The translations under genes and the position numbers were made by a program. From assembly GCA_963971425.1 (NCBI GenBank), contig OZ020518.1, forward strand, positions 4,786,263-4,850,262: DNA of 64,000 nt, read 5' to 3'. The notes below the pieces were generated by a model. It did not search any database. It saw nothing but the letters and a program-made list of their open reading frames with translations, and was not told the origin of the DNA. Below, in pieces: positions 1 to 39,500 of this stretch. The stretch is from Bryoerythrophyllum caledonicum. Lineage: Eukaryota > Streptophyta > Bryopsida > Pottiales > Pottiaceae. Position 1 is the first letter of the stretch, and each line of letters opens with the position of its first letter.

Positions 1-449
1 AAAATTCCTCACACAAGTCCAAAAACCCTAAACCTATAGTTCTGTAAGTAGTACAAACTCCAAGAAGTTATCTTCAAAAATGGATTTTTAGGATCGTGCC
101 AAAATCAATTTGTCTCCAATAGTGACAAATTGTCCTTTAGGGATTGAACATGAAAGATTATACTCTCAATACTATCATGAATCAATGCTAAAATTTTTAA
201 AAGATCCACACACATAGATGTCAACAAACTCAAGAACGGATATTCTACACAAGAGTAGTCAAGTGCAATTCAACAACACTAAAACATACATGTTGAAATC
301 TATAATCAACTCTAAATCAATACAATGGACAACACAACACATTTATCACATGTTTATACCAACATTCACTTTTGAACATTTTCGGAATAACCTTCTTACA
401 ACAAATTGAAGTCAAGGAGAAGAAACAAATGAATGCTACATTTGAGCCC

Positions 450-1772
450 TCATGTTGGCCAATGTTCCTCTTGTTCAACCTTATACCTTCTAACTTTTGC
501 TAAATTATCTTCAAGTACTTTCAATATATCTTTAAACGAAGGTCTATCCATAGGATTGGTTTGCCAACACCACTTTAGAAGTTCTCGTGCCCAACCCTCT
601 ACATATTCTGGCACCTCCGGTCGATTTCCATTAAGGACAAGATCATAATCCCTCCATGCATGGTCATCAAATGGATATCTCCCAGTCAATATTTCATAAC
701 TAGTCATTCCATAGCTATAACTATCCGCTTGTCTTGTAAATAACTCTGGACGCTCGAACACATTTCTCTCTTTGCAAGCCTGCAATACTTCGGGAGCCCT
801 CCAAAATCCCGTTCCAACAGTTCCGATGGAACACTCAAAGTCAGCAACAAAACTCATCCAATGCCCCTTAACCCCATGTTTCTTCATTAGCACATTCGCG
901 GCCTTGAGGTCTCTATGGATGATGTTGTGACTGTGCATCCACTTCATTCCAAGTGCAATGCGATACATGATCATTATAGCCTCCTTTTTCTCAAATGGTC
1001 CTTGATTCCTCACAAAATTTCTCCGCATCTTCTCGTCAATGATGGATCGTAGATCCCCATCTTCCTTGACCATCAGGAAGGCAAACCTTCCATCCCTTAA
1101 TAATGTAGCACACTTCACATAACAATGGTGCCTAATAACACGCGTTTGTCTAGCTTTACTAAGTGTGAAAACCTCTGCCCCGTACTGCAAGTACCCTTGG
1201 GGCCACTGGGATTGTAATTGGCGCAATAAGGTGCTCTTCTTGAACACCTTTAACACCCACTCTCGTCCCTTTTCAAGATCTCGCACATTTGTGTCTGGCT
1301 TACTCCAAGTCACCTTAACATGGAAGAGTTCCGCTTGCCCACCCTCTGCAAACTTCTCCCCTATCTCCAACTCACCCATATTTCCTCGACCTTCCACTCC
1401 CAAATCAAAACCAAAAGTTTTGAAGAACTTAGGGGCAACGGAATGCATCTGAAGCATCTTAAAAACTTCCCTATTCTCAAACTCAGCCCCTCCCTCTTCA
1501 TCAAGATTCATAGCCAACTTCGAAAGCTCGCTCCATTGCCCCTTGAAACTTTCAGATTGCTCTTCCACTTCAAAATCAATGGCGCACTTCCCACTCTCCA
1601 TCTTTGCCGCCACACTTTCACTACCTACAATGCAACTCGAGGTGGTCCCATGCTCACTCCCGCATGCAACAGCTGTGTGAGATTCCGACTTCGTCAATCC
1701 ACCACTCCAACAAGAGTTCATCAATCTCAACAGCGGCTTCCTCTTGAATGTCGGCGCACTTGTAGAGGCCAT
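450..1772 (-). CDS. Protein kinase-like protein with DFE activation motif (copy 1)
   Basis: This is a 440-residue open frame with no intron, starting at the ATG at 1772-1770. Residues 1-135 form a Ser-rich, low-complexity N-terminal region. The kinase domain spans about 135-425: nucleotide loop IGEKFAEGGQAELF (137-150), VLK lysine K175, catalytic loop IIHRDLKAANVL (284-295, with D288, K290 and N293), and GTGFWRAPEVL (320-330). The metal-binding DFG is DFE (311-313, VADFECSIG). The C-lobe ends with WCWQTNPMDRPSF (401-413). The fold resembles plant TKL/HT1-like cytosolic kinases. Intact HRD and VLK argue for some nucleotide binding, but the glutamate in place of the DFG glycine makes normal catalysis uncertain. 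Paralogues lie at 30,500-31,823 (broken) and 52,898-54,235 (open). Confidence 0.85.
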   Translation of the reverse strand: MASTSAPTFKRKPLLRLMNSCWSGGLTKSESHTAVACGSEHGTTSSCIVGSESVAAKMESGKCAIDFEVEEQSESFKGQWSELSKLAMNLDEEGGAEFENREVFKMLQMHSVAPKFFKTFGFDLGVEGRGNMGELEIGEKFAEGGQAELFHVKVTWSKPDTNVRDLEKGREWVLKVFKKSTLLRQLQSQWPQGYLQYGAEVFTLSKARQTRVIRHHCYVKCATLLRDGRFAFLMVKEDGDLRSIIDEKMRRNFVRNQGPFEKKEAIMIMYRIALGMKWMHSHNIIHRDLKAANVLMKKHGVKGHWMSFVADFECSIGTVGTGFWRAPEVLQACKERNVFERPELFTRQADSYSYGMTSYEILTGRYPFDDHAWRDYDLVLNGNRPEVPEYVEGWARELLKWCWQTNPMDRPSFKDILKVLEDNLAKVRRYKVEQEEHWPT

Positions 1773-3952
1773 TCGTGCTCAACCCTTGGAATTGTTGCTA
1801 CACCCTCTTGAACAACTGGATCCGCAAAAGAGGCTTTCAAAAAAACGAGACGACAACAAAGTACAAACCACTGTCTTGCACTCCCATGCAACTATGCCTG
1901 AGGATGAGTAGATGGCGACGAACATGCCTTGCTAGTTATCTACCACATTCGCAAGCAGACGCCTTCATATCCTTCCCAAACATACCGTACACCAAATCCA
2001 CCAAAGATAAATATAGATACAGATCTACTCACGGCTTTCAAGAACGTGCACAAAATGAAATCACGTCGACAGATTCTATGCGGACCACCAACAACAATGG
2101 TTCTGCCGAAGAGTGCTCAAGAGCTGCCAAGATAGCAAATATCGAGTGAAAGAGTCACAAGTTCAAAGAGACTGCCAATCGAAGGACAAGCAGGAGCGAA
2201 TCTTGGTGCTGCCAGAAATCAAACCCTCCAATCACCTGCTCCTCGCAACCCCTTGAACCCTCGTGAGACAGGTCAGCGCTCTCGTTGCCTTGCAACGCCC
2301 TGCCGCTTCCTACAATTAATAAGATCGGAAAACCTTCCACTTCACTCCATCACTTGAATTATCAAATGAAACTTGATGCAAGAGGATCCAATCCGCGCGG
2401 GAAACTCATCCGCCTCCTCAAATCGCCACACCAAACCCCGCAAAACGAGACCCCAGATCCACAATGTCGTCCGTGGGTAACAGAAACATTGCCATCAACA
2501 ATGGCCGCACCTGCGAGCGAGAGAAGAGAGATCCGCAGCCAAAGACCGCCAAGTTCCAGGTTATCACAAAACGAAGAAGTAGTCGTGCGCTAAACAGATG
2601 AGCGATCAAGTGACTCTGAGGCGTAGCCCCGAAGCGCGTCCAGACGCCTACTGTGGACCCCGAAGCCGTTTGACAATAAGCAGCCTGCAAGCTCGCTCCT
2701 GCTTTAGACAACTTCACCACCTGAACATACACAAAACATGCTACATCATAACTATTTCTAAATTCAGCTGAAACCAAATGAGGTGTACCCGCTGACTGAC
2801 GATACCATGAACACTAGAACTCCAGAATAATTCGTTCTCTGAACAATGAATGCCTCATTATTTATCAGGTCAATGACAATCAAACGAGGACGATGCCGAT
2901 GAATACTAACGATCCCTTCACCAAACCTAGACTTTGACTTGCTGTCAACACTTAAAAGAGTTCATCTAGTGGACCCAGTGTCCAGATAATCAATATAGGT
3001 CTAACTCGATGAGCTCCCAGAGTCTGTAAAAACCGAGTCAGTCCACTATCATCGCACCTAGCAAAACAGATCTCTATGATTCTGCCTAGAAGTGCAATAT
3101 AACGCTAACTCAGCTCCACCAGATTGAAGAAGAGTGTTTACCGAGATCTGTGGCTAAAAAGCTATTGTTAGAGCCCAGATCCTGTCAACTCCAGGTGCAC
3201 TAGACTGAAACGTGGAAGCAGAGCCTTGCTATCAAAACTTAACCTTGTCCAGCCATGTGCTACACAGGTCATTTCCACATAACAAAACTTGCATGTTGGT
3301 TACTCTTACCGACGATCGAGGAATAAAGAAACTACAGCTTCTGACCAGCCCTTGTTACGGAAACCATCCAGCTACAAAAATAAGATTTCAGGAAGCACTT
3401 ATCACACCAGCACATTAGGAAAGCCAGACAGACACAAGCGGCACAGCTGTCGAATATGCACACACATAGCACAGACTGAAGTACTCACCAGCTTGACCAA
3501 CACTGCAAGAGGAACCCCGATCACACAATGTCGTTATAAACCCCTTGAACAGATCATCCTCGATCCAGCACCTGCCACGAGCACCGGCCTTCTACACGAG
3601 AGTACTATCCAGTCATCCTCTGGGGTTGGTTTCTCGAAGCAACGCACGCAATGAGCACTGAAGTCTGCCAAAACGCTTGAACCGGAATGGCAACTTGCAT
3701 GACTACACACAATAGCCAACTTGGGACCAGAGGTTGACTTTGGAGGTAGAATCGCGTAAACAGTATTTGCCAGCCTGGTTCTCGGGTGACGTGAGAGGGG
3801 CCGTGTCAAGGGCATCGAATCCAGGCCACACGTTTCAGTTCCTAAAGTCAATGTGTCACTGTTTGCACCGAGACCTTGATTGCAGCTGTCACGGTGAGTA
3901 AAAACAATAAACAATTGAGGCACCGAGTACCGATCTACAGTGTTTCGGATAT
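1773..3952. repeat. Duplicated kinase upstream block, copy 1
   Basis: This non-coding stretch matches 31,824-33,822 and 54,236-55,685 closely over most of its length, and 55,776-56,760 more loosely. It holds the kinase 5' region and, at 2,464-2,601 on the plus strand, a 45-codon stretch starting MSSVGNRNIAINNG. In the fourth copy the matching stretch forms the putative first exon of the gene at 57.5 kb. No convincing gene is seen in the remainder. Confidence 0.7.
2464..2601 (+). pseudogene. Fossil first-exon piece of the neighbouring gene (copy 1)
   Basis: A short plus-strand frame (45 codons, real ATG) begins MSSVGNRNIAINNG and continues RTCEREKRDPQPK. It aligns in frame with RTSERRKTHPQRK of the putative exon at about 56,426-56,713, which goes on to a splice donor. 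In this copy the frame stops at TGA 2599-2601, before the matching donor. The same piece is at 54,732-54,869 with its ATG and near 32,440-32,565 without it. I infer it was carried along when the kinase block was duplicated. Confidence 0.45.
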
Positions 3953-5030: not shown

Positions 5031-7439
5031 ATGGAGGGGTTGCGATTTTGCACGACGTAGGTGGTGGCCAGCGATGGATCTACCGCGCCTCCCGACACTG
5101 TGAGCGACTCCGTGCATGCGCTTGAGAAACCCCTGCATGCGAGCTCAGAAGTCGAGGAGTTGGACCCTGTTGTTGCCAGCCAAGCTCACGAACTCGCTCG
5201 TGCTCGCCGCAGAGTTTACGAGAAGAATAGACACTGGCAAGACACTTGGGCTGCCCGACTGTCGTGGGCAGAGTCGGTGGTATCTCCCAACGGAGACGTC
5301 AGACAAGTTCGTTGCAAAGTCTGTTCTGAGGTTCAAGGTCGCAATAAGCTCCTTGTGCCGAATATTGACTCCATGTGGAAGCATGTAGGACGTCGGAAGG
5401 CACTTGCAACACACGGCAAGGTCGTTGCAGGTCAATTTTACTTCCTCTCTACCAATGCACACGTTAAAAATGAAAAAATCTACTTCGTACGTCATGGTCG
5501 GGCTGGGGACACTGTAGTCCAGCAAGTCCAGGCAAGTGCGGTAAAAGAGAGACGTAGGAAATTCGTTCAGTTCGGGTCCGTATTTTTCTTGATGCAGCAT
5601 GGACGTCCCATGTCTGATTTTTCCAATTTCCGTGAGCTTTTTGATATTCTAAGTGTTCCTGATCTGCCAAAGAAGCACTGGTCAGCTGGAGTGGGTTGGG
5701 AGATGGCTGATCATCTTGCCCCGACATTGGCCACGCACACAAAGAAGGTGATCTCTGCGGCTAAATTCCTATCTCTATCCGCTGATTAGGTAACTACCAT
5801 TGATGGTCAGTCCTGGTTGAGCATCCATTGCTATGTCTGTCTGCAATTTAAAAGAGTCCCGATCCTTTTGAGTTTGAGTCGCTTGCATGAGGGAAACACG
5901 GCTGATGCTGTTGGCCGGACAATATCAGCCATGGTGCTACAGCATGCCGGCCTTGACAATGTAACCTTGGCAAGCCGTTTGGTGTGCTTTGGGGCGGATG
6001 GGGACAGCGTATTCCAGGGTTGCAGGAATGGTGTGACAATGAACATGAAGGTTCATGCCGCTCCTTTCATGTTTGGTGTGCACTGCATGGTACACCGGAC
6101 TAACTTGGCCGTGGAGCCATTGTCTAATCTCCCTATTGTTGCCAAACTGGAGGCCCTGTGCCAGGCCATGTACTCGTATTTTAGCTTGAGTCCGAAACGA
6201 CATTTGGAGTTTCAGAGACTCGCCAACACTGTGGAAACAAAGGGACTTAGAATGCTCCGAAATGTAAAGACTCGATGGATTTCTTTGCTGGCTCCTTTGC
6301 GCAGGGCCATGGGGGAGTATAAGGCCTTGTTGGCGAAGATGTGCGAGGACGCTGCAGTTAAGGAGCCCGAAATGACATCCAAGCAAATGGCAGCGCGAGA
6401 GAGTGCAAGGCGGAACTATGACTTGCTGTGCGGTGTGGGCACCTTGTTGGCCCTGCCTTGCGTACTGCCAATGCTAGAATCTGTCGATTCGTTGATGAAA
6501 TTTGCTCAGTCCAATAATGTCTTCGTTGTTGACTACGTTGCTGCTATTCAAATATGTCAAGCGGAGCTGTATATGATGTATAGTGATGATGCTTCGGCGT
6601 TCCAGCAGCAACATTTTGGCATGTTTTATGATATTGTTCATGATAAATCCTACGCTATTGCGCAGGAATGGGTGACTAATCTGAATATGGGAGACAAAAC
6701 ATTGTCAATTCGGATTGGTGATCACAAGTACCCTGCTCATTCCATATGCACAGTCACTGGCAAGAAATTGTCAATGTCATAGAGTGACTTGCAGATTATC
6801 ATAACTTCGGTGAAGGGTCAGTGCAAGGACGCTGCTGACTTACTCAGGCTGCAGTTGGACTGCCGATTCCCTGAGGTGGAGTTGATGAACGCACTAGGGA
6901 TTGTGTTCCCACAGTACTGGCTGCAGCCAAATTGTGACGAACTATTTCCCTTGCATGTTAAGACGCTGAAGGAGCAGTATTTGGTATGCCGCACCGTAAA
7001 CTTCGGCAGTAAAGTTGAGCCTGAACTTACGCAACTTGACCCCATCATTGATGGGCGGTCCTTGATGCTCCAATCCAGCTTGTTCAAGCTGACCATGAAA
7101 TCGCATGCCAAAGCTACGATGGAAGAGCCTCATGATCTGAACCCGCTTATAAAGCTGTGGACTCGGGTGGGCCAGAACGCTCTCATGCTCTACCGGTTAT
7201 CTGAGTTCATCAAAGTGGCGGAGGTGGCCATAACTACCGTATTAGGTAGTGTGGAAGATGAGAGGACTTTCTCTACCTTGAACTTCATGAAATCGAAATT
7301 GCGAAACCGCCTTGGTGGGCATCTTGACGCATGCATGAAGTTGTATGCGCAACAATTTTTCACACTTAAATCTTTCCCTTTCAATTCTGCCATGACCAGT
7401 TGGCGGGAGGAAACCATCCGAAGAGGAGCGGATCGGTAA
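5031..7439 (+). pseudogene. hAT-superfamily transposase, interrupted by in-frame TAG codons
   Basis: One frame runs from the ATG at 5,031 to the TAA at 7,437-7,439 (about 800 codons). It is broken only by TAG at 5058-5060, 5787-5789 and 6780-6782, with no frameshift seen. N-terminal BED-type zinc finger: W...W then VRCKVCSEVQGRNKL...MWKHVGRRKA (about 5,250-5,400). Catalytic core: FGADGDSVFQG (about 5,990) and VHCMVHRTNLAV (about 6,080). C-terminal hAT dimerisation block: AITTVLGSVEDERTFSTLNFMKSKLRNRL (about 7,228-7,315). A cut-and-paste transposase acts in the nucleus on its own ends. The order of domains makes the family assignment firm. TIRs and target duplication were not identified. Confidence 0.85.
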
Positions 7440-8830: not shown

Positions 8831-8950
8831 TCAACGTGCTAAACACTCAGGACAGGACCATTGATCCACTGGCACTTCCAACAGAGGTGGAGTTAAGCAT
8901 TCTAAATGCCACCCCGTAGAACATAAGTCACAAATAACCATAGTGGCTGC
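8831..8950 (-). other. PHD finger at the C-terminus of the retroelement integrase
   Basis: The terminal residues read ICDLCSTGWHLECLTPP, then WSCPECLAR: the C-x2-C...H-x2-C...C-x2-C tail of a PHD finger. PHD fingers bind histone H3 tails. In this position, past the integrase core, the domain could steer insertion to particular chromatin, by analogy with the chromodomains of chromovirus integrases. That role is inference. Confidence 0.7.
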
Positions 8951-9149
8951 CCTTTTGGCACTACCATACAATTGACAACGTAATCCAGCAGAGGTGTGAG
9001 AGAGACCAGGGTGTATTGTCCCATCAATGTGTGGCAAGTGACAAGGTGCACAATTACGTGTGTGATCCTTCCACTTCTTGCCATCACAACCCTCCAACAC
9101 TAACACTCCTGAGTCCTTCACCTCACGAACTCTTAAGATTACCCTTCCT

Positions 9150-10060
9150 GCTGTCACATCCAAGGTGGTGGGCGCTGCTTGCTGCAAATACACATAGTCT
9201 CCAGGTGTGAAACGCCGCACCTGCGGTCGATAACCACCTCCTCGTATTGTAGCATAGCGCAACGTATCCCGATGTTGAGCAATGGAGAGGTTCTCCAATA
9301 CCATAGGCATCACCTTTTTGAACAACTCTGCACGTTGCTCACACACTTGAACCCACGTGTCTGGATTGTCTATGTTAGCCAACACGGTGTCAGTAACTGC
9401 TTGAATGGCATTCGGTAAAACCGGGTGCCTTCCAAACAATAGATAGTAAGGTGAAAAAGACGCCAAGGATGCCTGTTTGCTGAACCGATAGCCCATTGCT
9501 ATCCATGGTAGCTGTAAATCCCAATCCTGGTGATGTCCTTTCTTCAAGCTGTATTTCCGGAGCCCCCTCTTGACGGTTTGCACCATGCGCTCTGCCAATC
9601 CATCTGCTTCGGGGTGATCCCTCGAAGTAGTGCGATGATCAATCATCGCCTGCTCACACAACGTCTGAAACTCACCCAAGAACTCTCTACCTTGGTCTGT
9701 GAGTACCTCTGCTGAAGCTCCAAAGCGACTCAGAACACGGTCAAGAAATGAATAAGCAGCTCCCTCACTTAACTTATCAGGTAATGCCACTAACTCTATT
9801 CATTTCGAGAAATGCTCGATGATTACCAGCACATACTTGTTGTGTCGAGGTGTCACTGGCAATGGACCTGCAAAATCCAAGCTCCATCTATATCCTAAGC
9901 CCATAATTGGCAAAGGTTGTAACTGAGGCATTGGAGCGTTAAAAGACGCTCGTACCCGGTCACACACCATACACCAAGCCACTAAAGCTTGCACTTGGGA
10001 TTGCATTCCACGCCACCAGTAGTGAATCTGAAGTAGACTACAAGTCCTCCGCACTCCAAA
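9150..10060 (-). other. Integrase region of the fossil retroelement
   Basis: The HHCC zinc domain is visible (HEDLGHFGVRRTCSLLQ...WCMVCDRV), followed by the integrase core with SLDFAGPLP, TDQGREFLGEF and a conserved glutamate in PEADGLAERMVQTVKRGLR. This is the DDE integrase that inserts the retroelement copy. It is described as a fossil part only. Confidence 0.75.
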
Positions 10061-10479
10061 GTGTCCAAGGTCCTCATGTGTGTCTTTAATTAGTTTCACT
10101 CTTTCTATTGGAGTTGGTACTACCTTCTTAGTACCATCTGGCCACACTCTCACAAGGTGAATCCCCTCCCACACAAACCTCTTAGCTCGTTGTAGAACCC
10201 TATCTCTCTCCTTATGAGACCATGAAGCCACCGTTTCTCCATCTTGCAAAAATTTCATCACATTCGTATCTTCGTGAATATCTCTGGCGCCCCCAAAATC
10301 CTCACCTCCATCCTCATCTACTGTGGCCACAGTATCTTCCCCGGTGGTGTCTCCATTCATTGCTAATATCCCCAGAAAACCCGAACAATGCCACCCTGGC
10401 AACGGGTCGGTTTCACCCTCAGTATGCCACCTAGCACCTGTATCATCCTCTTGGTTTGGAATTGGATTGCGGCTAAGGC

Positions 10480-11770
10480 CATCTGCATCCATATTAACCA
10501 AACTTGCTCTATGAACCACCTTGAAGTCATACTCCATCAACATCAAGGCCCACCGTGCCAATTTTCCTGTCAATTTATCAGACTCTATCAACCATTTCAA
10601 CGGCTGATGATCTGTAACTAACAGAAATTCGTTACCATAAAGATAACACCGAAAATGAGCAATTGCCCATATCGCAGCCAAACATTCCCTCTCATACGAG
10701 CTATATTGAGCCTCAGCATTGTTGTTGGACCGGCTGGCATACGCAATCACAAATTCCTTACCATCATCATCCATTTGCGTCAATACTGCACCAATCCCCA
10801 ACGAGCTCCAATCTGTGTGTAGCTGGTACGTCCTTCCTGCTATAGGTCTCCGAAGTATTGGTGCTGATGCGAAACGGTCTTTCAATTGTTGAAAGGCCGC
10901 CTCTTGCTCATCTCCCCAGATCCAAGGTTGATCATTCCTTGTCAACATGGTTAATGGCTTGGCAATAGCACTGAAAGTTTTGACAAACTTTCTATAGTAG
11001 TTACACAATCTTAGAAATGCTCTCAACCTACTAACATCTCGTGGTCTAGGAATAGACATCACTACTTCCACTTTGCTAGCTACCACACCTAATCCACTTG
11101 GATAAATCATGTGGCCTAAATACTCAATGCGATCAAAGTAGAATTTGCACTTATCAGGGTGCAACTTTAATCCATGAAGCCTCAATCTAGCAAAAACCTC
11201 GATCAAGGGTAGTCTATGTTGTTTTCGATTCCTGCTAAAGATAATGATGTCATCAATATAGCATCTCACGAAATCCAACCCCGAGAATACTCTGTCTATG
11301 ACTCTTTGAAATTCTGCTGGAGCATTCTTCAATCCAAACGGTAGAAACTTCCATTGAAACAACCAGTCCTTCCCATCCCTGTCAATGCCCCAAAACGCGG
11401 TTTTCTCTTTGTTTTCCTCTCTCAATCCAATTTGATGGTATCCAGAGCGTAAATCCAACGTACTAAACACCTTGGCATGGCCAATGGCCTCAAAATTCTC
11501 CTCCGGAGTTGGCATTGCACAATGGTCTGACTTAGTGAATTTGTTAATTCTCCTATAGTCACCACACATCCTTTTCTCAGTCCAATTACCATAAATGTCC
11601 TTCTTGGATGGCATAACCGTTGCTGATGCATACTCACAATCTGGAGGAGCCAACTCCACCAACCCTGCAGCCATCAATTTTTCAGTGCGAGCACGAATCA
11701 TCTTCCGCTCCATGTCGCTGTACTTGTATGGCTTTCGATAAATTGGTGCTTCGTCGGTTAAGTTAATACG
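10480..11770 (-). other. Reverse transcriptase and RNase H of the fossil retroelement
   Basis: RT motifs include KRMCGDYRRINKFT, FSTLDLRSGYHQI, FQWKFLPFGLKNAPAEFQ and the catalytic CYIDDIIIFS (YxDD class). RNase H follows with LHTDWSSLGIGAVL and ends near VNMDADGLSR. Together these place the element in Ty3/Gypsy. Confidence 0.9.
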
Positions 11771-12349
11771 TACTTCTTGCCCCTTCAACACTCCCAAATC
11801 ATGTAAACTGAAAGCAAAACAATCTAAATACTCCTTTAGGAACTCATGTTCCTCCACCTCCACTGCTCCATCTGCCAGGCCTACTTTTGGTTTCCAAGTG
11901 TCCTTAGTCACCACCTCCTTCGGTTCCTTTGGAGCACGGTTTTCCACCCTTGGTTGCTATTGAATCCCCTATAGAGGAGACTCTCCTCCTTCTTCCTCAG
12001 TAACACTCCCAAGTCCTTCCAATTGACCCAATTTGTCAATTTCTTCCATGTGAAGAGCTGTGTGTTCTTCCAAGAAGATCTTCTCCACAACATCCTCCAA
12101 ATCCATCCTCTGATGAGCCAATCTGCTCCCTTCACTCCAATTCTCCCCTCCATAGTGAAGCTCTGTTGCCTTGGTGGTCGCAAAAATATTTGGGTTATCC
12201 CACATGTTCCATGGATGAGGTGCAAAGGCCCTCTCGCCCCCAACCACCTTTCTTGTCACCCTGACAGAGGCAAGTGGTTCTCCTACTGCTAGCAACTCAT
12301 AATAACCCATGTAACTAGTTAAACTAGAAGCCAACCGCTTCTGTTCGGC

Positions 12350-13312
12350 AACCACTAATGAAACAATCCACGTCAAGCAATTTAAGTCCATGACCTGACC
12401 AAGTAAAAATCGTCTCTGTGGTTCTGAAATCCCAGGCACATCGGTGGTGCCAGTGGGAAATCCCATGGCTCTCTCTCTCTCATCTGCATTGGGTTCTACC
12501 ATCTCTTGAGACACTGAATCCCAAACAAGTCCAGGTCCATTATCCTTGAAAGGATAAGACCTTGCAAAACTAACCAACGTGGGCAAGGCCTTACGTCGTT
12601 CCTCCTTGCGGTTAACCACCGCTAATGGTGTCTGGTCATCGTGATACACGCGCCGTGGTGTCCTGTGAGGATCGAAAATGTAACTCACATACACATCTGG
12701 GCGTTTAATACGACCCACCGCGGACTGTAGCAATTCTGCTGGTGCCAGGTTTGTCCACCACAAGCGTGGTCTATATGCCCTGGACCCTACTGCAGCCGCA
12801 TCAATTAACACTGGCAATCCCAGAGTCTGATGGATCCTATGCATACTCTCGAGTGTCCTGGACCTCGAACTGCTCACCACGGGCACGTTCTCCACAATAT
12901 AACCAGGCGGTTGCCTCTGAGAAGTCTCAAGTAATCGAATCACTCGAATCATGTCTAAGAACCTAGAAGAACGGGAATCCTCTAACCCATTCTGATTGCA
13001 TGCCATAGACATGCCTTGGCAAGGCCATCCTACAATGACAAGGTCCACAGGACCCACGCGGTGATTGTCATCATCTGACAACAAAGAAATATCACCCACA
13101 AGAGTAGAGAAAGAGGTTTTGATGGCACTAGTGGCCAACAATTCTGGAAATTGAGTCCTCAGTCTCCGTCTGTGACGTTTGGCAACATGTCTTGCTGCTT
13201 CATCCACATTCACGTAAATGTAGCGCTTAACCTTGATCCCGGCTTGTAAAACAGCTGCCAGGCCTGTGCCAATTCCTCCAAAGAGCTCCAATAATACGAT
13301 ACCATCCATTGG
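12350..13312 (-). other. DNMT3-like C5-cytosine DNA methyltransferase domain inside the retroelement
   Basis: Within the 646-residue product at 11,969-13,909 the domain spans about residues 200-520. Motif I is VLLELFGGIGTGLAAV (205-220), motif IV is GWPCQGMS with catalytic C297, motif VI is YIVENVPV (337-344, ENV), and motif VIII is RAYRPRLWW (377-385). A motif IX/X-like end is PGISEPQRRFLLGQVMDLN. The order I-IV-VI-VIII-X is conventional, not the rearranged DRM order. The stretch LPVLIDAAAVGSRAYRPRLWW resembles DNMT3 around motif VIII. Such enzymes transfer methyl from AdoMet to cytosine C5 in DNA. DNMT genes captured by retrotransposons have been reported in charophytes and dinoflagellates. 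Confidence 0.85.
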
Positions 13313-13924
13313 TGTCTTCCAATGGATGGTAGCAGTGTCTAACGGAGGCCCCATGTCTTGATCAACTCCAGTCTCCTGTTGCATCTGTGGTAGCAATGAT
13401 TGTTGCCATGCTTCTTCCACTACTAACTCCGCGGCCTTCCTCAACTGGATGGTGTTACTCCATGCCGCCTCAATCCCAGGTCTATATCCTTCTTCCTCTC
13501 CACCACTCGTGTTGCCCATGTAGGCATCCACCTTCTCTGAAATGTGGTCAACCATAGAAGGGTCCTCAAAACCTACCTGAAACCATGAAGGTTTCATGTT
13601 CATACATCCAGAGAAGGCAAACAGGTCAGCTAAGTTACCAGTAAGAACTCGAACAAATCGAGCTGGCAGCTGAGCCTTCCGCCCATCTCCTGCTTGCCAT
13701 CCTGGTCTATAGCTTGCTGACTCCTCCCAGAAATCCAAGGTGAATCCCATAGGGTATAGCACCGCCGAGCCCACCAAGACGTCATACGACTTGGCCTCAG
13801 TAACGACCGCCTTCACCTTCATAGAACTGGCATTTGCCACATCACTTTGGTTGAGTTGTAAAACTAACTTAGCCCTTGTGATCCCTGTGGCGTGCTCTGT
13901 ACCCCCCATGGATGTGCTAATGGT

Positions 13925-15964
13925 CTAGGGACACTTCTCCAAAGTATCCCCAGTTAATCCCAACCCTTCCATAGTAGACGCTCCCAGCATCAAAGGTTGA
14001 GCTCCCGAATCCAGAAGCACACGTCGAGGTACAAATATCTTCCCCTTAGGCCCAACGAGTTGGAAAATACCTTGGGAATTATCAACCACTACCACGCCAG
14101 AGGTAATGGATGATCTTCCAATCGCAGGTCTAGCGGCCATTGTCTTCACACGCATAGCTGCTGAAAGCAGCCCCTCCACGCTGTCACTCTGACTCTCCTC
14201 TGCTTGGATGATCTTTGACTTCAACACATTCACCCCCGTGGAGTTATCCAACTCACACCTTGAGGCTACACTTTTCAAAACCTCTGCCAAACTGAAGCCA
14301 TCCTGTGACAACATCTTAGCAGAAAATAACGAGGCTTCCCACACGGAAGTAGTTGCCTCCATAAATGCTGCAGAACCTCCTATGAGTCCTCCAGCTCGTG
14401 GTAAGGCTCGTGTGGGTGTCGCCACTGGTTGTGGTGGAGGCACCATGGACGACGTGGGTACCATCTCTTCTAACGTGAAGGATTGTGGCAACCTGGCTTG
14501 TCGGTTATCTTTTCCATGGTGTGGATCGAGAGTCGGAGTAGCTCCACGTGGAATATCCTTAGAAACTGGAGTATGGCTTCGTGTGAGAGCATAGGCCTCA
14601 TGTGTGCCATCCTTGATGGCAAGTGCCATGCCACTCAACATAAAATCTCCAAATTCATCATCCATTGAGCTAAAACCGCCCCCAGCATGAAAATTGGGAG
14701 TAACCTGAGGCTTGCTACCTACCACATTGGTACTCGCACTCATAGCTTCCATCTTGGCCTCCAACTCGGCGAATTTGGCCTTCCAGCTCTTCTTTTCCCC
14801 TCCAGTGGTCTTGGACTCCTTGTCCTTGCCTCCTTTAGCTCCCTTACTTCCCGTGGGCTTTAACTCTGGATAGAGCTTCCAGCAGCTGGCCTCTGCATGC
14901 CCCTTGGCACCACAACCCGAGCAAAAACATCCAATCTGAGGTGTGGAAGTCTTACCTTCCTTGCAATCCTTTCTTTGATGTCCTGGCTTCCCACATTTGA
15001 AGCACAAGGCACCAGATTCTGTAGTATACGAAGGAATGGCCACCTTGGCCACCTTAACCTTCTCTGGGACCTTCTCTTCACGTTTGAAAAAGCCCATGGC
15101 TGCCTTCTCTTCCAGTAAGTTTATCTCAATCCGCTCCGAAGTCTCAAAAACAAACCGTAGTGTCGTGGGTACTCCCAATCGCAACGCCTCATTGCGAACC
15201 AAGGTCTTCAACTCCTTATCCAGGATACTGTACCAATGTTGCACTGCCTGTTGTTCTGTAACTCCGTGAGTGGCTGAGATTAGTCTCCTTAATCTCGCAT
15301 GAGCCTCTCTCAGAGACTCGTCACCTCCACGTGTGAAGGAACGTAGGGCCTTCATCTTGTCCGCCCTCTGTCCTTGGTAGTCTCTATGGAGTTGCACAAA
15401 AAATCCCACGGTGGGATTAAATGGAGGTGGATGATTTACAAGTACCTCTGACTGCTCCACATCCTCCGTTGTGCTCGTGTCTTCCTCCATCTTCCCTTTG
15501 GACAAGCGTGGAGGTATCACCCTCGGTGCTCCACCGAACACGTCCACGTAGTTCGGTGCGTAGAAGTCTCTCCAGGCCATGATTTCGGTGAAATGAGCCG
15601 CCTCGAACTCTTCGTAGTTCGCCAGTGGCGCTCCCTCCAGACACCCGAACAAGGCTCTCCATACCATATACGGATTGAAGTTGGGGTTACGTGACTTCTG
15701 GAGTTCACACCACATGGTGAACTCCCTCTTGAAGTCATCGACTTCGATGGTGCCCGTGGCACCTGAAAATCTTCGTACCCCTCTTTCTCCACCTCCATGT
15801 GGTGAAGCCATTTCCTCCCAATCAAAATATGATTGGTAAGGCTTTATGGGTAAGACTGAAACCTGATCACTCACTTGCGGGCTTTCTAAAAATTCCTCCT
15901 CTTCCACCAGTGGCAAATCACTCCCCTCTGCCTCTTCCGATTGACCAAGAATTTCAGACAACAC
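13925..15964 (-). other. Gag region with CCHC knuckles and protease-like end (fossil retroelement)
   Basis: The region encodes an acidic N-terminus, a capsid-like middle segment, and two zinc knuckles (CFKCGKPGHQRKDC and CSGCGAKGHAEASC). A Lys-rich linker follows. Near the C-terminus, RRVLLDSGAQPLMLG has the DSGA signature of a retropepsin-type aspartic protease. The arrangement is that of a Ty3/Gypsy Gag followed by protease. Confidence 0.75.
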
Positions 15965-16194
15965 TCTTTCACTAGCATCTACTGAGAAGGGGGTGTTTCT
16001 ACGTGTAAACCCGGGACCCTTCCAGTTCTCCAGATTGCTAGTTTCGTGATCTACTCGAATAAATGCCAGGCTTCATGGGTCCCTCTCATCTGTGGAGCAT
16101 AGATTGTAGGTATAACTTCCCAATCCAATAACTCTAACCTAAGAGTATCCCACACACTCGAGGCACGCTCTTGCCACGTATTAACCTCCCACTG

Positions 16195-16713
16195 CTAGGT
16201 AGTGTGGAATAGAAATCCTTCGTTCTCGAACTCGGTGAAAATGAGGGAGAAGGTGGGTAACTGGATGCCTGAAGAGAAGTCCTCAACCTCTATACCATAT
16301 CTGGATCCAGAATTTCGAAGAACCACGGCCTTACCTCCAGTTACCAAGTCTTTGACCCCCACTTGCCCGCGAGCACGGCACAGCGGTGCTGAAATTCCCT
16401 CCTTTGTCCGAAGTGAACGAATATTTTGGACCCCACCTAGTGAAGTCCAATACTTCACTGATTCCGCACTCAACACCTTCGTGTCTGGTTTGTGCAAACT
16501 CTGAGGCCCCGTACGAGATTTCGCTATGGGTGAAAGCTCAAAGTCCCCGTGGCTACCACTTGCTGTGGCTAGGGAACCTTTCACTCGTAGGCTCTGCAAA
16601 CAATCGATCAAGGTGTCCAACACTTCACCATCAATTTCTACCTTCGGCCCACTAGTCCTCTCGGGCTTCTTAGACTTACCTCTTCCCTCCATGGTCCATA
16701 ACTCAAGTCTCAA
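16195..16713 (-). other. Unassigned product upstream of Gag in the retroelement
   Basis: This 172-residue frame lies on the same strand as Gag and just before it in element orientation. It has a basic N-terminus (GRGKSKKPERTSGPKVEIDGE) and no motif I recognise. It may be an extra element gene or leader-encoded product, or simply chance. Confidence 0.35.
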
Positions 16714-16829
16714 ATATCCTTGAAATTCTCAAACCATATTAATAGAGTCCCTGCAAAGTGCTACGAATCCACTTTTCGCTCCACCAGGTGCTATGAGTAT
16801 AAAATCATCTTTCAACCTCCTGGTAGTCA

Positions 16830-17720
16830 ATGTTGGTACTCGGGTAATCTCATACGCAAACCCTACCTAACCTCATACAGGTAGGGCAACCACCAATATG
16901 GTCCCAGTCTCGGTTACCAACCCCCACAGCCGGTCATCAACCCGACTGCTGGTTATCAACACGAGTGCAGGTCATCAACCCCACACCCGGTCAACAACCA
17001 AGGGGCCGGGTTTAAACCAAGCACCAGACATCAGCCTTAACCCGAGTATAATCACACTCACCCGGGTATCAGTAGAACCAAGCGAGGGTGTGAATCCTGC
17101 ACCAGGGTAACAAACCCACACCTGGGTATCAAATCCTGTCACCGGGTACCATAGTCCCCACCGGGTATAAACCCACACCAGGGTATCCTGCACAAGGACC
17201 GGGTCTCAGGAACAAAACCGGGTAACAACACCACTGCCGGATATCATACACTCTGCCGGGTCCTAAACAGTCAGCCGGGCATAAGTACCAGAACAGGGTA
17301 TCAGGAAGATCGGATATCAGGCAAACAGGGTACCAGTAACATCCTGGGTATCAGCACCAACATTGATATGATCACCCACAGCCGGGTACCAATCCACGAA
17401 CCGGGTATAACTCAATAAATAGGATATTAACTAGACAGGCGGGTATCAGGTCACTAACCAGGTATCAGGCCCTAACCGAGTATCAGACCCCTGACCGGGT
17501 ATCAGACCCCTAGCCGGGTATCAAACCCCTAACCGGGTATCAAAACCCTAACCGGGTATCAATGCGTTCAGTGGGTCTCAGCAAGTACCGGATATAAGTA
17601 AGAGGAGGGTATAAATAACTATGAAACAGGCGGGTATAATTATAGGAACACGTATCAATAGCAGCGCCGGGCAGAGTGTCCACGACCGGGTACCAAGTCA
17701 CAGACCGGGCAGAGTACCGA
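16830..17720. repeat. GGGTATCA minisatellite (about 20-bp unit)
   Basis: About 890 bp is made of degenerate direct repeats of roughly 19-21 bp around a core ACCGGGTATCA. The best-ordered run is at about 17,440-17,570 (CCGGGTATCAGACCCCTAA-type units). I estimate around 40 units. It starts just beyond the 5' end of the Gag-side retroelement region, so it may sit in that element's leader or be an independent array. Confidence 0.8.
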
Positions 17721-28407: not shown

Positions 28408-28595
28408 TTATGTATATATATATATATGTATATATATATGTATATATATATATGTATATATATATATGTATATATATATATGTATATATATATATGTATA
28501 TATATATATGTATATATATATATGTATATATATATGTATATATATATATGTATATGTATGTATATGTATATGTATATATATGTATATATATATAT
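28408..28595. repeat. (TA)n/(TATATG)n microsatellite
   Basis: About 190 bp of TATATATATG-type repeats. The corresponding place in copy 3 (about 51,000-51,030) has only a short TA-rich tract, so the array expanded in copy 2. Confidence 0.95.
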
Positions 28596-28599
28596 TACA

Positions 28600-29990
28600 A
28601 ATGTAAGAGTAGATGTAGCAAATGAAGATAAGTGTTTTCTATAACATTTTTTTACATATTCAAAGATATTTTGAAATTATAATGAATTATAGAACTGTGA
28701 AAAAACATTTCATTTCACTTGTATATCAAATCAATGAGTGTATACTATATTTTTTAGCATCTTTGCATGTGAATCAAAGTTCATTCATGGTAATAAGTCT
28801 AAAATAATATTTATATGTAATGGCTTATTGAAAATTAAAATTTCAATATTTTTCAAGCAAATCTTAAAACAAAATGTTCCAAATCTCACTTAGTTTATGT
28901 TAGAAAATAGATGTGATACGGTCATTTTCATGACATAAATAAAGTCCTTGTGACATGATCGTCTATGATAAAAAATGCATTAAATGATATAATATTTTTA
29001 CCACATTATATGTGGTTTGACCTTATGTATGATTAAATAAAAAAATAACTCTTTAATGCCTTTCATAAACAAGAAGCTTTGAACTTATTAAGATAGTATA
29101 CATCACTTTATCTTACAACATCTAAACCACATCACCTACCAATTTTCTATTTTTATAAACGAGAAAATTCCAAATGAAAATTATTCAAATTACAAAAATC
29201 AGTACTATGATATTTATAATTTATACTTAAAGCGTATGTGTAGATTTGAAAAGATTACTAACTTGCAGTGAACAGACCTGGTAATATGAAAATGTCAAAT
29301 AAGTTTGTAATTAATCCCTGAAAAACCAAGCCTTGTGCTTCACCAAGACCACCCCAAAACTACCACTTTGAGATGAGATATTATTAGACTTATTCAAATG
29401 CTTTTTTACTTCTATCAATTGTTGGATCTTCAAACTAACCACTACAAGAAGACACTCTAATAATTTTGTAAATTTTGACTATATGGATCGAATGATAATT
29501 GCATTTGAAGAGTGCAAAATTGATTATTATCTACTATGTCCGAACAGGTTCGGCATACTTTGACTCAAGATAATGGCATATTTTTCCATTACACATTGCA
29601 TAAACTCAATGGATCTATGTTCTACCTTGTGTGAAGCCATTGCATGCCAAAAGTCACAAGCAATGGAGGTGTTTACAATAAGAAAAATGGACCTGCAACG
29701 ACTAGGGGTAGAGAAAGTGACTCTTCACTTACAAAAGCAATATTATTTTTTAATAGAGAAATAATTGTTGGATCTAATATTCGAATGGTAAATGGAATCA
29801 TCATGTCATATTCTAACAATAGAAATAATAATTTTTTAGTAAAAGTAAAATCCTCAATTTCCATGCGTTTTAAGGTGAAAATAATGAAGATAGCCAAAGA
29901 ACTTTCCTTCACTATCACTTGCCTAAAAAAAGTGCAATTGTCAACTCTACACTAGCTCTAATCATCTCAATAATACCCTGTCCACCTGCC
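28600..29990. repeat. Segmental duplicate of about 51,030-52,400
   Basis: AT-rich non-coding DNA aligned throughout with 51,030-52,400. Both copies contain the same remnant of a TTAA-type element (about 29,310-29,550 and 51,733-51,970), so that insertion predates the duplication. Confidence 0.7.
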
Positions 29991-30499
29991 AAAAGAGTTG
30001 AGCTTTTTATGAACGAAGCACCATAATTTTTCCTCATAAGTTCGAAAAAAAATTAAAAAAATTCCCCCCATAAGTCCAAAAACCCTTAATTTGTATTTTT
30101 ATTAGCAGTACAAACTTCAAGAAGTTATCTTAAAAATTGGATTTTCTAAAACCACTCCAAAATCAATTTGTCCTCAATAGGTACAAATTGTCCTTCAGGG
30201 GATAAGCATGAAAGATATCTACACTCAATACTATCATGAATCAATGCTATAATTCTTAAAAGATCCACACAAGTAGATGTCAACAAACTCAAGAATGGAT
30301 ATTCTACACAAGAGTAGTCAAGAGCAATTCAACAACACTAAAACACACATGTTGAAATCTACAATCAACTCTAAATCAATACAGTGGACAACATAACAAA
30401 TTTATCACATGTTTACACCAAGATCCACTTTAAAACATTTTTAGAATAACCTTCTCACAACAAACCGAAGTCAAGGAGAAGAAATATATGCATTTGGGC

Positions 30500-31823
30500 T
30501 CACACCTTTGCCAATCGTTCCTCTTGTTTAACCTTAAACCTTCTAGCTTTTGTTGAATTATCTTCACGTATTTTCAATATATCTTTAAACGAAGGTCTCT
30601 CCATAGGATTGGTCTGCCAACACCACTTTAGAAGTTCTCGTGCCCAACCCTCTACAGACTCTGGCACCTCCGGTCGATTTCCATTAAGGACAAGATCATA
30701 ATCCCTCCATGCATGGTCATCAAATGGATATCTCCCAGTCAATATTTCATAACTAGTCATTCCATAGCTATAACTATCCGCTTGTCTTGTAAATAACTCT
30801 GGACGCTCCAATACATTTTTCTCTTTGCAAGCCTGCAATACTTCAGGGGCCCTCCAAAATCCCGTTCCAATAGTTCCGATGGAACACTCATAGTCAGCAA
30901 CATAAATAGCCATATTCCCGCTTCCCCTTTCTTGCCACACAAGCACATTTGCTGCCTTGAGGTCTCTATGAATGATGTTGTGATTGTGCATCCAATCCAT
31001 TCCAAACGCAATGCGATACATGATCATTTCAGCCATCTCTTTGTTAAATGGTCCATGGTCCCTCCTATTATTTCTCCGCATAGACTGATCAATGAAGGTT
31101 TGAAGATCCCCATCTTCCTTGACCATCAAGAAGGCAAACCTCCCATCCCTTAATAATGTAGCACGCACCACATTACAATAGTGCCTAGAAATACCCTTTC
31201 GTCTAACTTTACTAAGTTTGAGAAACTCTGCCCGATACTGCGAGTACCCTTGCGGCCACTGGGATTGTAATTGGCGCAATAAGGTGCCCTTCTTGAACAC
31301 CTTTAACACCCACTCTCGTCCATTTTCAAGATCCCGCACATTTCTGTCTGGCTTCCTCCAAGTCACCTTAACATGGAAGAGTTCCGCTTGCCCACCCTCT
31401 GCAAACTTCTCCCCTATCTCCAACTCACCCGCACTTCCACGACCTTCTACTCCCAAATCACAACCAAATGTGCTAAAGAAGTGGGGCAATGGAGTGCATT
31501 TGAAGTGTCTTAAACACTTCCCTATTCTCAATCACAGCCCCTCCCGCTTCATCAAGATTCATAGCCAACTCCGAAAGCTCGCTCCACTGCCCCTTGCAAC
31601 TTCCAGATTGCTCCTCCACTTCATAATCAATGGCGCACTTCCCACTCTCCATCCTTGCCGCCACACTTTCACTACCTACAATGCAACTCAAGGTGGTTCC
31701 ATGATCACTCCCACATGCAATCGTTGTGTGAGATTCCGACTCCGTCCGTCCACCACTCCAACAAGAGTTCAACAATCTCAACAGCGGCTTCCTCTTCAAT
31801 GTGGGCGCACTTGCAGAGGCCAT
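30500..31823 (-). pseudogene. Kinase-like gene copy 2, frameshifted, DYE motif
   Basis: The start is the ATG at 31,823-31,821 (MASASAPTLKRKPLLRLL). Around 31,480-31,490 a 2-bp loss relative to copies 1 and 3 shifts the frame, ending the first part after LQMHSIAP. The kinase domain then continues in another frame: FAEGGQAELFHVKV, WVLKVFKKG, IIHRDLKAANVL, and VADYECSIG where DFG is expected, then RAPEVL. The kinase half remains open to 30,500 and stays close to the other copies. An alternative product from an internal start cannot be excluded. Confidence 0.8.
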
Positions 31824-33822
31824 TAGTGCTCAACCCTTGGAATTGTTCCAACACACTCTTGAACAACTGAATCCGCAAAAGAGGGTTTAATAAAATGCCT
31901 TGCTAGTTATCTACCACATTCGCAAGCAGACGCCTTCATATCCTTCGCAAACTTTCCGTAGACCAAATCCACCAAAGATAAATATAGATACAGATCTACT
32001 CACGGCTTTCAACAACGTGCACAAAATGAAATCACGTCGAAGGATTCTATGCGGACCACCAACAACAATGGTTGTGCCGAAGAGTGCTCAAGAGCTGCCA
32101 AGATAGCAATGATCGAGCGAAAGAGTCACAAGTTCAAAGAGACTGCCAATCGAAGGACAAGGAGGAGCGAATCTTGGTGCTGCCAGAAATCAAACCCTCC
32201 AATCACCTGCTCCTCGCAACCCCTTAGAACCCTCGTGAAACAGGTCAGCGCTCTCGTTGCCTTGCAACACCCTGCCGCTTCCTACAATTCATAACATCGG
32301 AAAACCTTCCACTTCACTCCATCACTTGAATGATCAAATGAAACTTTATGCAAGAGGATCCAATCCGCGCGGGAAACTCATCCGCCTCGTCCTCAAAGCG
32401 CCACACCAAACCCCGCAAAACGAGACCCTAGATCCACAACGTCCGTAGGTAACAGAAACATTGCCATCAACAATGGCCGCACCTGCGAGCGAGAGAAGAG
32501 AGATCCGCAGCCAAAGACCGCCAAGTTCCAGGTTATCACAAAACGAAGAAGTAGTCGTGCGCTAAACAGATGAGCGATCAAGTGACTCTGAGGCGTAGCC
32601 CCGAAGCGCGTCCAGACGCCTACTGTGGACCCCGAAGCCGTTTGACAATAAGCAGCCTGCAAGCTCGCTCCTGCATTAGACAACGTCACCACCTGAACAT
32701 ACAAAAAACATGCTCATCATAACTATTTCTAAATCCAGCTGAAACCAAATGAGGTGTACCCGCTGACTGACTATACCATGAACACTAGAACTCCAGAATA
32801 ATTCGTTCTCTGAACAATGAATGCCCCATTATTTATCAGGTCAAAGACAATCAAACGAGGACGACGCCGATGAATACTAACGATCCCTTCACCAAACGTA
32901 GACTTTGACTTGCTGTCAACACTTGAAAGAGTTCATCTAGTGGACCCAGTGTCCAGATAATCAATGTAGGTCTAACTCGATGAGCTCCCAGAGTCTGTAA
33001 AAACAGAGTCAGTCCACTATCATGGCACCTAGCAAAACAGATCTCTATGGTTATCCTAGAAGTGCAATATAACGATATTTCAGTTTCTAGCAGGTTAAAG
33101 AAGAGGGTGTCCCCAGATCTGTGGCTAAAAAGCTATTGTTTGAGCCCAGATCCTGTCAACTCCAGGTGCACTAGACTGAAACGTGGAAGCAGAGCCTTGA
33201 TATAAAAAAATAACCTCGTCCAGCCATGTGCTACACAGGTCATTTCCACATAACAAAACTTGCATATTGGTTACTCTTACCGACGATCGAGAAATAAAGA
33301 AACTACAGCTTCTGACCAGCCCTTGTCACGGAAACCATCCAGCTACAAAAATAAGATTTCAGGAAGCACTTATCACACCAGCACATTAGGAAAGCCAGAC
33401 AGACACAAGCGGCACAGCTGTCGAATATGCACACACATAGCACAGACTGAAGTACTCACCAGCTTGACCAACACTGCAAACAGAACCCCGATCATACAAC
33501 GTCGTTATAAACCCCTTGAACATTTAATCCTCGATCCAGCACCTGCCACGAGCACCGGCCTTCTACACGAGAGTACTACCCAGTCATCCTCTGGGGTTGG
33601 TTTCTCGAAGCAACGCACACAATGAGCACTGAAGTCTACCAAAACGCTTGAACCGGAATGGCAACTTGCATGACTACACACAATAGCCAACTTGGGACCA
33701 GAGGTTGACTTTGGAGATAGAATCGCGTAAACAGTATTTGCCAGCCTGGTTCTCGGGTGACGCGAGAGGGGCCGTGTCAAGGGCATCGAATCCAGGCCAC
33801 ACGTTTCAGTTCCTAACGTCAA
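31824..33822. repeat. Duplicated kinase upstream block, copy 2
   Basis: Near-identical to 1,773-3,815, except that a segment present in copies 1 and 3 (about 1,835-1,915) is missing. It contains the first-exon fossil at about 32,440-32,565, which here lacks the start codon. It is interrupted at 33,824 by a TIR element. Confidence 0.75.
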
Positions 33823-33824
33823 TA

Positions 33825-35205: not shown

Positions 35206-35816
35206 TATCACATTGTTCTTTCTCCGGCTTTGAAGTTGATTGCTCCGAGCAAATTTTCATCCATTCTCCCCACGTGCCCTGCATGGCCAACTTGCTAATT
35301 CTAATACATCCTCTCAATTAAACTTGTAAGATTTGAAATTGACCTCCAATAAAGTAGACTACACTAGCCACACAAGAAAAAAAAAAGAACTTTGGTCCCA
35401 ACAATAACCAGCGTGAGTATAAGGTGGAGGCACCCTGGCACCACGGCCTTGGTGTGGTGGTTTGGATCATGGCACACTGGTGAGGTGGTTGTGAGTTCAA
35501 GTCTATTGCTGGCGTAGTGCCTACCATCATAGTAAGGGGGTTTTACACTAGGGTGGAGAACTCCACCAGCCGGTCAAGAAGTCTCGGCCAAGACATGGTT
35601 ATTGTCTTGGCCGAGTGGTGGATGTTGGACGAGACAAAAAAAGAATAAAGTAATGCATGAAGAAGTCTTGACAGGTTCGTAGTGTAAACACCCAACAGTG
35701 AGGCCCACCGGCCAACTTCATAAGGTGAAGACCACTGGTGAACTTCACCACCAAGAAAGTCTATGCTAGCCAACGGAAACCACAATTTCTAATGGTTCCC
35801 ATGGACATATTTTGTA
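35206..35816 (+). mobile_element. tRNA-derived SINE (about 35,440-35,530) within dispersed segment
   Basis: The segment 35,212-35,330 matches 20,436-20,550. The SINE then carries GGTTTGGATCATGGCACAC (box A-like) and GGTTGTGAGTTCAAGTC (box B-like), as in the minus-strand copy at 20,835-20,935. The remainder to the Tc1 element shows no gene. Confidence 0.5.
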
Positions 35817-36765
35817 CAATAGGGTGACATTCAAATTGGCGTTTGGGCAATTCCAGGGATGGTGTCCCACACTGCTGCCAACTTTGACGCCCTCCACAGG
35901 GCTGAAAAATTGTTCTTTTACCCTGAAATTTTGGGAACAGCATCACCTCTATGTTAAAAACATGCATACCAAATTTCAAGTCCAGAGGACTTATAAAACA
36001 AAAGATATTAAAAATTAACCACCATGGGGTAGCTGTGAGAAAAGTTTCTCAACGGCCAACTTTGACACCATCCCAAGGATTGAGGAAATTTTTTTTGCCC
36101 ATGGAATTTTTGAAGTGAGAACACCTTTATGTTGATTACATGTGTGGAAATTTTCAAGTCCAAAAAATGCACAAAAAAAATCACATCCCAAATCTACCAA
36201 CATGTGTAATTGTGAGAAAAAAAGGGAAAAACCATTTTACTACTTCCAACTTTGACACCCTCCCTAGGATTGAGGGTTTGTTATTTCAACATGAAATTTT
36301 TGACACATGGTAACCTTTATGTTGATAACATGTGGGAAAATTTTCAAGGCCAAAAAATGTATTCAAAAGAAGATATTCAAAATCTACTAACATGGGGGTT
36401 AGTTGTGAGAAAAGTTTCACAGCTGCCCACTTTGACACCCTCCCAAGAATTCAAAAAAATTTATTTGTCCATGAAATTTTGGGTATGAAGTCACCTTCAC
36501 GTCAAATACAAGTGTGGAAAATTTCAAAATCCAAAAGATTTACACAAAAAAACATATACCAAGTCTACCAACATGTATTGTTGTGACAAACAAAGGGGAA
36601 AGTTTACCACTACTTCCAACTTCAACACCCTTCCTAGGATTGAGTTTTTGTTGATACATAATGAAATTTTGGCCACAAGATCATCTCCATATTGGTAACA
36701 TATAAGATAGATTTCAAAGCTAAAAGATGTATATACAAAAAAAAATTATTCCATATCTACCAACG
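35817..36765. repeat. Left compound TIR, five units of about 180 bp
   Basis: Units start near 35,875, 36,055, 36,245, 36,423 and 36,615, each with a CCAACTTTGACACCCTCCC-like line, then CATGAAATTTT, then ATGTTGATAACATGTG-like text. The inner boundary touches the transposase stop codon. Confidence 0.85.
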
Positions 36766-39498: not shown

Positions 39499-39500
39499 TA

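Follow-up and report, generated by a model that had tools for sequence, protein, structure and literature searches.

Why would a retrotransposon, usually a target of DNA methylation, bring its own methyltransferase? This reversal of roles is posed by a 64,000-nucleotide stretch of the Bryoerythrophyllum caledonicum genome (contig OZ020518.1, positions 4,786,263 to 4,850,262 of the forward strand; hereafter the window), in which the minus strand from 16072 to 8831 holds one Ty3/Gypsy-type element that includes a DNMT3-like C5-methyltransferase (DNMT). The apparent Gag-level dose of the enzyme and a domain of chromatin-reader type on the integrase sharpen the reversal. With moderate confidence, the element is read as a dead copy of a selected streptophyte Ty3/Gypsy-type family in which Gag, protease (PR) and DNMT3 are produced up to a leaky UAG codon, and readthrough yields reverse transcriptase (RT), RNase H, integrase and a PHD finger. 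The DNMT would mark the element's own cDNA or insertion, the PHD finger would steer integration, and a methylated copy in silent chromatin would be tolerated.

Domain organization of the element

The reading frame is interrupted by stop codons alone, with zero frameshifts. Pfam matches combined with reading of the translation give the 5′ to 3′ order gag-protease-DNMT3-RT-RNase H-integrase-PHD, which contains the gag-PR-RT-RNase H-integrase order of Ty3/Gypsy elements; the Pfam matches to gag, protease and the integrase core fall under the cut-off in this broken copy. The features are as follows.

13925..16072, minus strand: gag-protease part, first frame (weak gag and protease matches)
about 14957-15004, minus strand: CCHC zinc knuckle in gag, within the first frame
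about 13940-14029, minus strand: region of the DSGA motif of the aspartic protease
13925..13927, minus strand: in-frame TAG in the protease region
11960..13924, minus strand: remaining protease, linker and DNMT; the first frame closes at TAG 11957
12329..13312, minus strand: DNMT3-like C5-methyltransferase domain (motifs, sequence and fold)
13268-13282, minus strand: DNMT motif FGGIG
13016-13024, minus strand: DNMT motif PCQ
12884-12892, minus strand: DNMT motif ENV
12764-12772, minus strand: DNMT motif RPR
11969..11971, minus strand: in-frame TAG
11951..11962, minus strand: CAA-TAG-CAA-CCA, putative programmed readthrough stop at the DNMT/RT junction (TAG at 11957-11959)
9803..11956, minus strand: RT, RNase H, H2C2 domain and start of integrase
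about 11105-11581, minus strand: RT
about 10529-10834, minus strand: RNase H
about 9947-10105, minus strand: H2C2 zinc-binding domain
9800..9802, minus strand: in-frame TGA in integrase
8834..9799, minus strand: integrase core and C-terminal region (core about 9611-9787, Pfam below cut-off)
8843..8965, minus strand: PHD finger at the integrase C-terminus (Pfam)

A DNMT3-like enzyme within a Gypsy-type element had been proposed for this locus from the letters alone (the original prediction), and the domain order and motifs bear out both the proposal and its coordinates and motifs (FGGIG, PCQ, ENV, RPR). Three points were overlooked: the PHD finger, the probably programmed TAG and the living family. 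The window copy itself is dead.

Type and substrate of the methyltransferase

Motifs I, IV (PCQ), VI (ENV) and VIII (RxR) occur in the order that defines C5-methyltransferases. The order is unrearranged and DNMT3-like, in contrast to the rearranged order of DRM enzymes, as motif I stands ahead of motif IV and the final conserved motif lies at the C-terminal end. Among solved structures the sequence is closest to DNMT3, with DNMT3A at 5.6e-23; weaker matches are 4onj (labelled DNA methyltransferase, 6.6e-10), HhaI (1.3e-7), DRM2 (2.3e-7) and DNMT2 (4.9e-7). The DNMT3 assignment previously drawn from motif order thus withstands domain comparison, DRM2 matching far more weakly than DNMT3A. Structural comparison likewise yields a DNMT3-type catalytic fold. 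The likeness to DNMT3A and DNMT3B lies in this fold and in motif order, whereas identity in structural alignments is 20-28%, Pfam detects no PWWP or ADD domain in the DNMT frame, and some relatives have ECQ in place of PCQ.

The sequence leaves the substrate unfixed, and DNMT2 is known to methylate RNA at C5. A DNMT directed at RNA, or at host DNA as a weapon or silencer against the host or rival elements, instead of at the element's own DNA, is nevertheless somewhat unlikely: both sequence and fold are of DNMT3 type with only a weak DNMT2 match, and the DNMTs of the dinoflagellate SymbioDIRS elements methylate CG in DNA in yeast (PMC5890265, accessible text).

Relatives in other streptophytes

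The Gypsy element KnitGypsy-Dnmt3 of Klebsormidium nitens has its DNMT in the Pol open reading frame (ORF), and the capture was assigned to the K. nitens lineage (de Mendoza et al. 2018, PMC5890265, accessible text). Protein searches with the window DNMT returned 74 proteins, of which metagenome proteins were best at ~70% identity; relatives in Calypogeia, Marchantia and Sphagnum showed 33-48% identity. With the RT as query, 176 proteins were found at E up to 1e-100, the best 120 of which were tallied for domains and hosts. Named hosts among these 120 are Calypogeia fissa, Marchantia polymorpha, Riccia sorocarpa, Klebsormidium nitens and several Closterium strains, and PF00145 accompanies RT in five. 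All organism-named rows in the DNMT search, among the 120 RT matches and in a further search with P0169 are streptophytes except P0032, a bacterial metagenome-assembled genome entry on a 2410-base contig that is possibly mis-binned.

By BLAST, 10 of 194 proteins contain both DNMT and RT, and DNMT precedes RT in every one (10/10). They include P0107 and P0114 (Marchantia), P0163, P0182, P0187 and P0188 (Closterium), and P0094 and P0169 (metagenomes). In the Marchantia and Closterium relatives the DNMT directly precedes the RT. A protease lies before the DNMT in P0107, P0018, P0024, P0197, P0199, P0203 and the window; no upstream protease part was seen in the Closterium, P0094 and P0169 proteins. 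The DNMT was found in Calypogeia and Sphagnum, where S. magellanicum P0200 comprises fragments of DNMT, integrase and PHD, and the RT backbone was found in Riccia and Klebsormidium. The K. nitens RTs P0113, P0130 and P0139 (the last with a PHD finger) fall among the relatives in an RT tree that was built by a quick method with midpoint root, no outgroup and weak forks, and that does not establish their link to DNMT-carrying elements. A K. nitens DNMT was not reached by searches with the window DNMT or with P0169.

In a DNMT tree of 45 rows, in which deep forks are weak, the window groups with metagenome proteins, then with P0026/P0034, then with a Marchantia-Calypogeia group. The original prediction had held that clustering with charophyte retroelement DNMTs would indicate shared origin, and clustering with the host's own DNMT3 a separate capture. 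The Closterium element DNMTs do align and tree with the window family, in a tree that comprises neither a host DNMT3 nor the K. nitens DNMT. DNMT and RT distances correlate at r 0.94 among the nine proteins with both domains (0/5000 shuffles as high), a value that owes much to close pairs within Closterium and within Marchantia. Overall, these sequence comparisons suggest a single old lineage among streptophytes and not a capture restricted to K. nitens.

Independent acquisition of DNMT3 by Gypsy elements, once per host lineage, is a minority possibility. For K. nitens, independent capture is the published account (PMC5890265, accessible text), and the composition of the tree leaves room for it. 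The constant placement of DNMT before RT, and after the protease wherever the latter is visible, argues for common descent instead, as does the distance correlation within its limits. Tentatively, and short of an even chance, a single ancient DNMT3 capture may have preceded the split of Klebsormidium, Closterium and bryophytes and persisted over hundreds of millions of years. In some branches the enzyme would lie on the Gag side of a programmed leaky stop and would form, with the PHD-integrase, a self-contained kit that writes 5-methylcytosine and reads histones, both placing and marking new copies.

Scans for DNMT patterns also were performed on contigs. Viral contigs contained no pattern match, and genome contigs yielded five, none of which (0/5) was a relative by tblastn.

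A conserved stop codon between DNMT and RT

The frame contains four in-frame stops, all of which the original prediction counted as damage. That count is retained for three. The TAG at 13925 is replaced by Trp in genomic loci L002, L003 and L006, and is a stop also in L004; the TAG at 11969, three codons before the conserved TAG, is CAG or CTG in five copies and TAG also in L007; and the TGA at 9800 is Trp (HFSKW) in P0076, P0078 and P0083. Decay of all four was rejected on account of the TAG at 11957, which looks programmed.

The context ATT CAA TAG CAA CCA AGG is unchanged in all seven sequences that reach the stop (the window and L003-L008), whereas adjacent codons vary. L003-L008 are the best-scoring genome matches rather than a random sample, and copies were located by means of QPRVEN so that altered ones could escape; L002, alone of the seven element loci, is absent from the comparison as it has no similarity across that stretch. 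In 7/7 cases the stop conforms to UAG-CAR-YYA, the six-base context reported to be essential for readthrough in tobacco mosaic virus (PMC2754532, PMC2194720, accessible text). In SIRE1, Tca2 and candidate rice gypsy elements, too, a stop in frame divides the upstream portion of the polyprotein from the downstream one (PMC2194720, PMC2754532, accessible text). In contrast to tobacco mosaic virus, SIRE1 and Tca2, the putative leaky stop of the window element parts Gag-PR-DNMT from RT.

The distance from the TGA that precedes gag to the TAG at 11957 is 1371 codons in the window. Among the 123 scored matches in the host genome, an open frame of exactly 1371 amino acids occurs in five (in one of these the match contains a TGA) and frames of 1353-1371 amino acids in 16, 1371 being the longest common frame; none is near the ~2400 amino acids expected from an intact copy without the stop. 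As the 1371-residue frames equal the TGA-to-TAG distance, they presumably end at this TAG. Because of this match and the 7/7 identical contexts, the TAG at 11957 is probably not damage.

Alternatively, the conserved TAG might not be read through but merely close ORF1, and production of the ORF2 protein (RT-integrase-PHD) might depend on reinitiation or on a spliced or subgenomic RNA. Two frames with a stop between them fit separate expression too, and the ORF2-like proteins P0076, P0078 and P0083 start with Met near the same place, as gene callers tend to select. However, the two parts share one frame without a spacer, the identical contexts stand amid varying codons, and a fit of CAA-TAG-CAA-CCA to UAG-CAR-YYA is expected by chance about once in 500 at even base use (our arithmetic). 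Separate expression is thus judged unlikely, and readthrough preferred.

The family in the host genome and its conservation

A profile search of the host genome (437 Mb, 894 contigs) gave 1053 candidates, 123 of which were scored. Related elements, which the original prediction had proposed to seek here, are plentiful: 122 of the 123 are candidate copies of the family. The seven loci fetched besides L001 all belong to it (7/7) and share 91-94% identity with the window across 1.9-3.4 kb. L001 (G000:C14:16014858-16018817) holds, within a contig of 22 Mb, an entire C5-methyltransferase ORF of bacterial type (E 2.4e-62) and reflects contamination or gene transfer. In 15 of the 123 rows the match begins at profile positions 1-3 and runs to 100-120, rather than beginning at 42-49; frames reach 1353 amino acids, and three of 1108 residues lie on small contigs. 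These 15 rows may belong to a second subfamily that carries a DNMT, or to the known one with a different alignment.

The mean pairwise ratio of nonsynonymous to synonymous substitution rates (dN/dS) is 0.217 across 28 pairs of the DNMT (window and seven loci) and 0.236 across 21 pairs of the initial RT segment (seven sequences), compared to 0.29 for the linker, 0.52 for a protease-side stretch and 0.50 for the stretch after the DNMT. With a DNMT dN/dS as low as that of RT, the family is, on these comparisons, not a fossil and apparently still under selection. Description of the element as a fossil therefore holds for the window copy and fails for the family, which has many candidate copies, five open 1371-residue first frames and low dN/dS.

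The same values bear on whether the DNMT is catalytically dead and retained as a nucleic-acid-binding or structural part. The usual C5-methyltransferase motif is PCQ and ECQ is unusual. Glu for Pro before the catalytic Cys, which could favor an inactive domain, was observed in 9 of 42 rows (P0051, P0094, P0163, P0169, P0182, P0188, P0195, P0197 and P0198); these rows were selected with a pattern that demanded the Cys, and consequently are no evidence of its conservation. In contrast, all 20 rows of alignment A1 share Cys and Gln of motif IV and Glu and Asn of motif VI, residues that are at least 90% conserved across the 29 rows of alignment A2. Together with the low dN/dS, this conservation makes a dead enzyme very unlikely. 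Finally, the reading that retroelement sequence has inserted around a host DNMT3 gene was rejected, as an intronless DNMT lies in frame between protease and RT at several loci (L003, L004, L006, L007, L008 and the window) and many further candidate copies exist in the genome.

The PHD finger

Chromoviruses likewise bear a chromatin-protein domain at the integrase C-terminus, but theirs is a chromodomain; by Pfam, the window element has no chromodomain after integrase and a PHD finger there instead. Tyr replaces Cys as the second zinc ligand in the window. A PHD finger is present in 39 of the 120 RT relatives tallied, and none was found in Closterium P0163 and P0137. With a Marchantia relative as query, the closest solved PHD relatives were CHD4, PHF12, ubi-d4 (DPF2), ATXR5, DPF3 and KDM5B, several of which bind the histone H3 tail unmethylated at Lys-4 (H3K4).

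Proposed mechanism

Readthrough and packaging, the activity and substrate of the enzyme, the PHD target and the benefit are inferred along the following lines. Genomic RNA would be translated as Gag-protease-DNMT3 up to the leaky UAG, and a minority of passes would extend the same protein into RT-RNase H-integrase-PHD. Particles then would contain the DNMT in amounts like those of Gag and not of Pol, and the enzyme most likely would methylate the double-stranded cDNA inside them or the newly inserted copy. The PHD finger would steer integration to particular, probably H3K4-unmethylated, chromatin, so that a copy born methylated within silent chromatin would be tolerated by the host. Self-methylation of cDNA or new insertions, as suggested by the original prediction, is a fair hypothesis. 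Methylation of cDNA already has been proposed for DIRS elements (PMC5890265, accessible text), to which this family would add the Gag-side dose and the PHD finger.

Several observations weigh against this model. Two of the 123 scored frames exceed 1371 amino acids (1517 and 1710), and the 1371-residue frames are known as table lengths and not as sequences. The Closterium relatives, P0094 and P0169 pass from DNMT into RT without a stop and therefore Gag-level DNMT output is not general; as other relatives (P0017, P0018, P0199 and P0203, all gene models) end shortly after the DNMT, the stop appears confined to part of the lineage. The dN/dS means stand without a significance test. Direct-repeat searches at 5-22 kb and 6.5-20.5 kb spacing revealed no pair of long terminal repeats (LTRs) flanking the element, and primer-binding site (PBS) patterns gave weak, mismatched matches alone, so that no LTR, PBS or polypurine tract is established in the window copy. 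Pairwise counts against the seven loci showed no excess of CG-to-TG decay towards the window, and thus the window copy bears no historical sign of special methylation; the observed/expected CpG ratio of the element (0.54) is inside the range of the window (0.18-0.91). Last, the K. nitens DNMT showed no activity in yeast, a result that its authors call inconclusive (PMC5890265, accessible text).

Comparison with known elements

The link that the original prediction drew to retrotransposon DNMTs of charophytes and dinoflagellates is correct (PMC5890265, accessible text). KnitGypsy-Dnmt3 likewise has the domains of a Gypsy-type element together with a DNMT3-like domain that is unrearranged and evolves under purifying selection; by description, its DNMT resides in the Pol ORF, whereas that of the window is upstream of the putative leaky stop. 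SymbioDIRS-Dnmt3 and SymbioLINE-Dnmt of dinoflagellates also are DNMT-carrying retrotransposons, but of the DIRS and LINE classes. In the accessible text of PMC5890265, Marchantia, moss and PHD are absent, "bryophyte" appears once (for host DNMT3 sequences) and "stop codon" once (for Symbiodinium). A survey from 2025 refers to the cases from streptophytes and dinoflagellates and names Copia and DIRS (PMC12344493, accessible text), and the main text of a survey of plant LTR retrotransposons lacks methyltransferase and PHD (PMC6317226). No report of bryophyte or Closterium DNMT elements was found in the open-access literature, a search that left aside subscription papers and preprints, and within that literature KnitGypsy-Dnmt3 is the sole published Gypsy case found.

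KnitGypsy-Dnmt3 may be a single branch of a lineage spread across streptophytes, Marchantia among them. As Marchantia is a tractable laboratory plant, the benefit that a DNMT brings to a retrotransposon could be put to the test. Caution also is advisable with DNMT3-like gene models in bryophyte and algal genomes, which possibly are transposon genes.

Surroundings of the element

Two further features lie upstream of gag.

16195..16728, minus strand: 177-residue ORF in another frame (no match in the family search)
16922..17712, minus strand: imperfect ~19-nucleotide minisatellite, possibly leader or LTR

Positions 1-3852, 28574-33823 and 50999-56597 of the window are three copies of one segment, with main pieces 86-96% identical, indicating segmental duplication around the element; the segment holds an intronless minus-strand ORF that reads as a protein kinase. 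On the plus strand, 5061-7439 is a row of ORFs whose translations resemble a broken hAT-type transposase. An ORF that reads as a Tc1/mariner-like transposase (36982-37770, minus strand) is flanked by 954-base inverted repeats (35813-36766 and 38549-39502) that are 99.6% identical, and the two together perhaps constitute a young DNA transposon with long inverted repeats.

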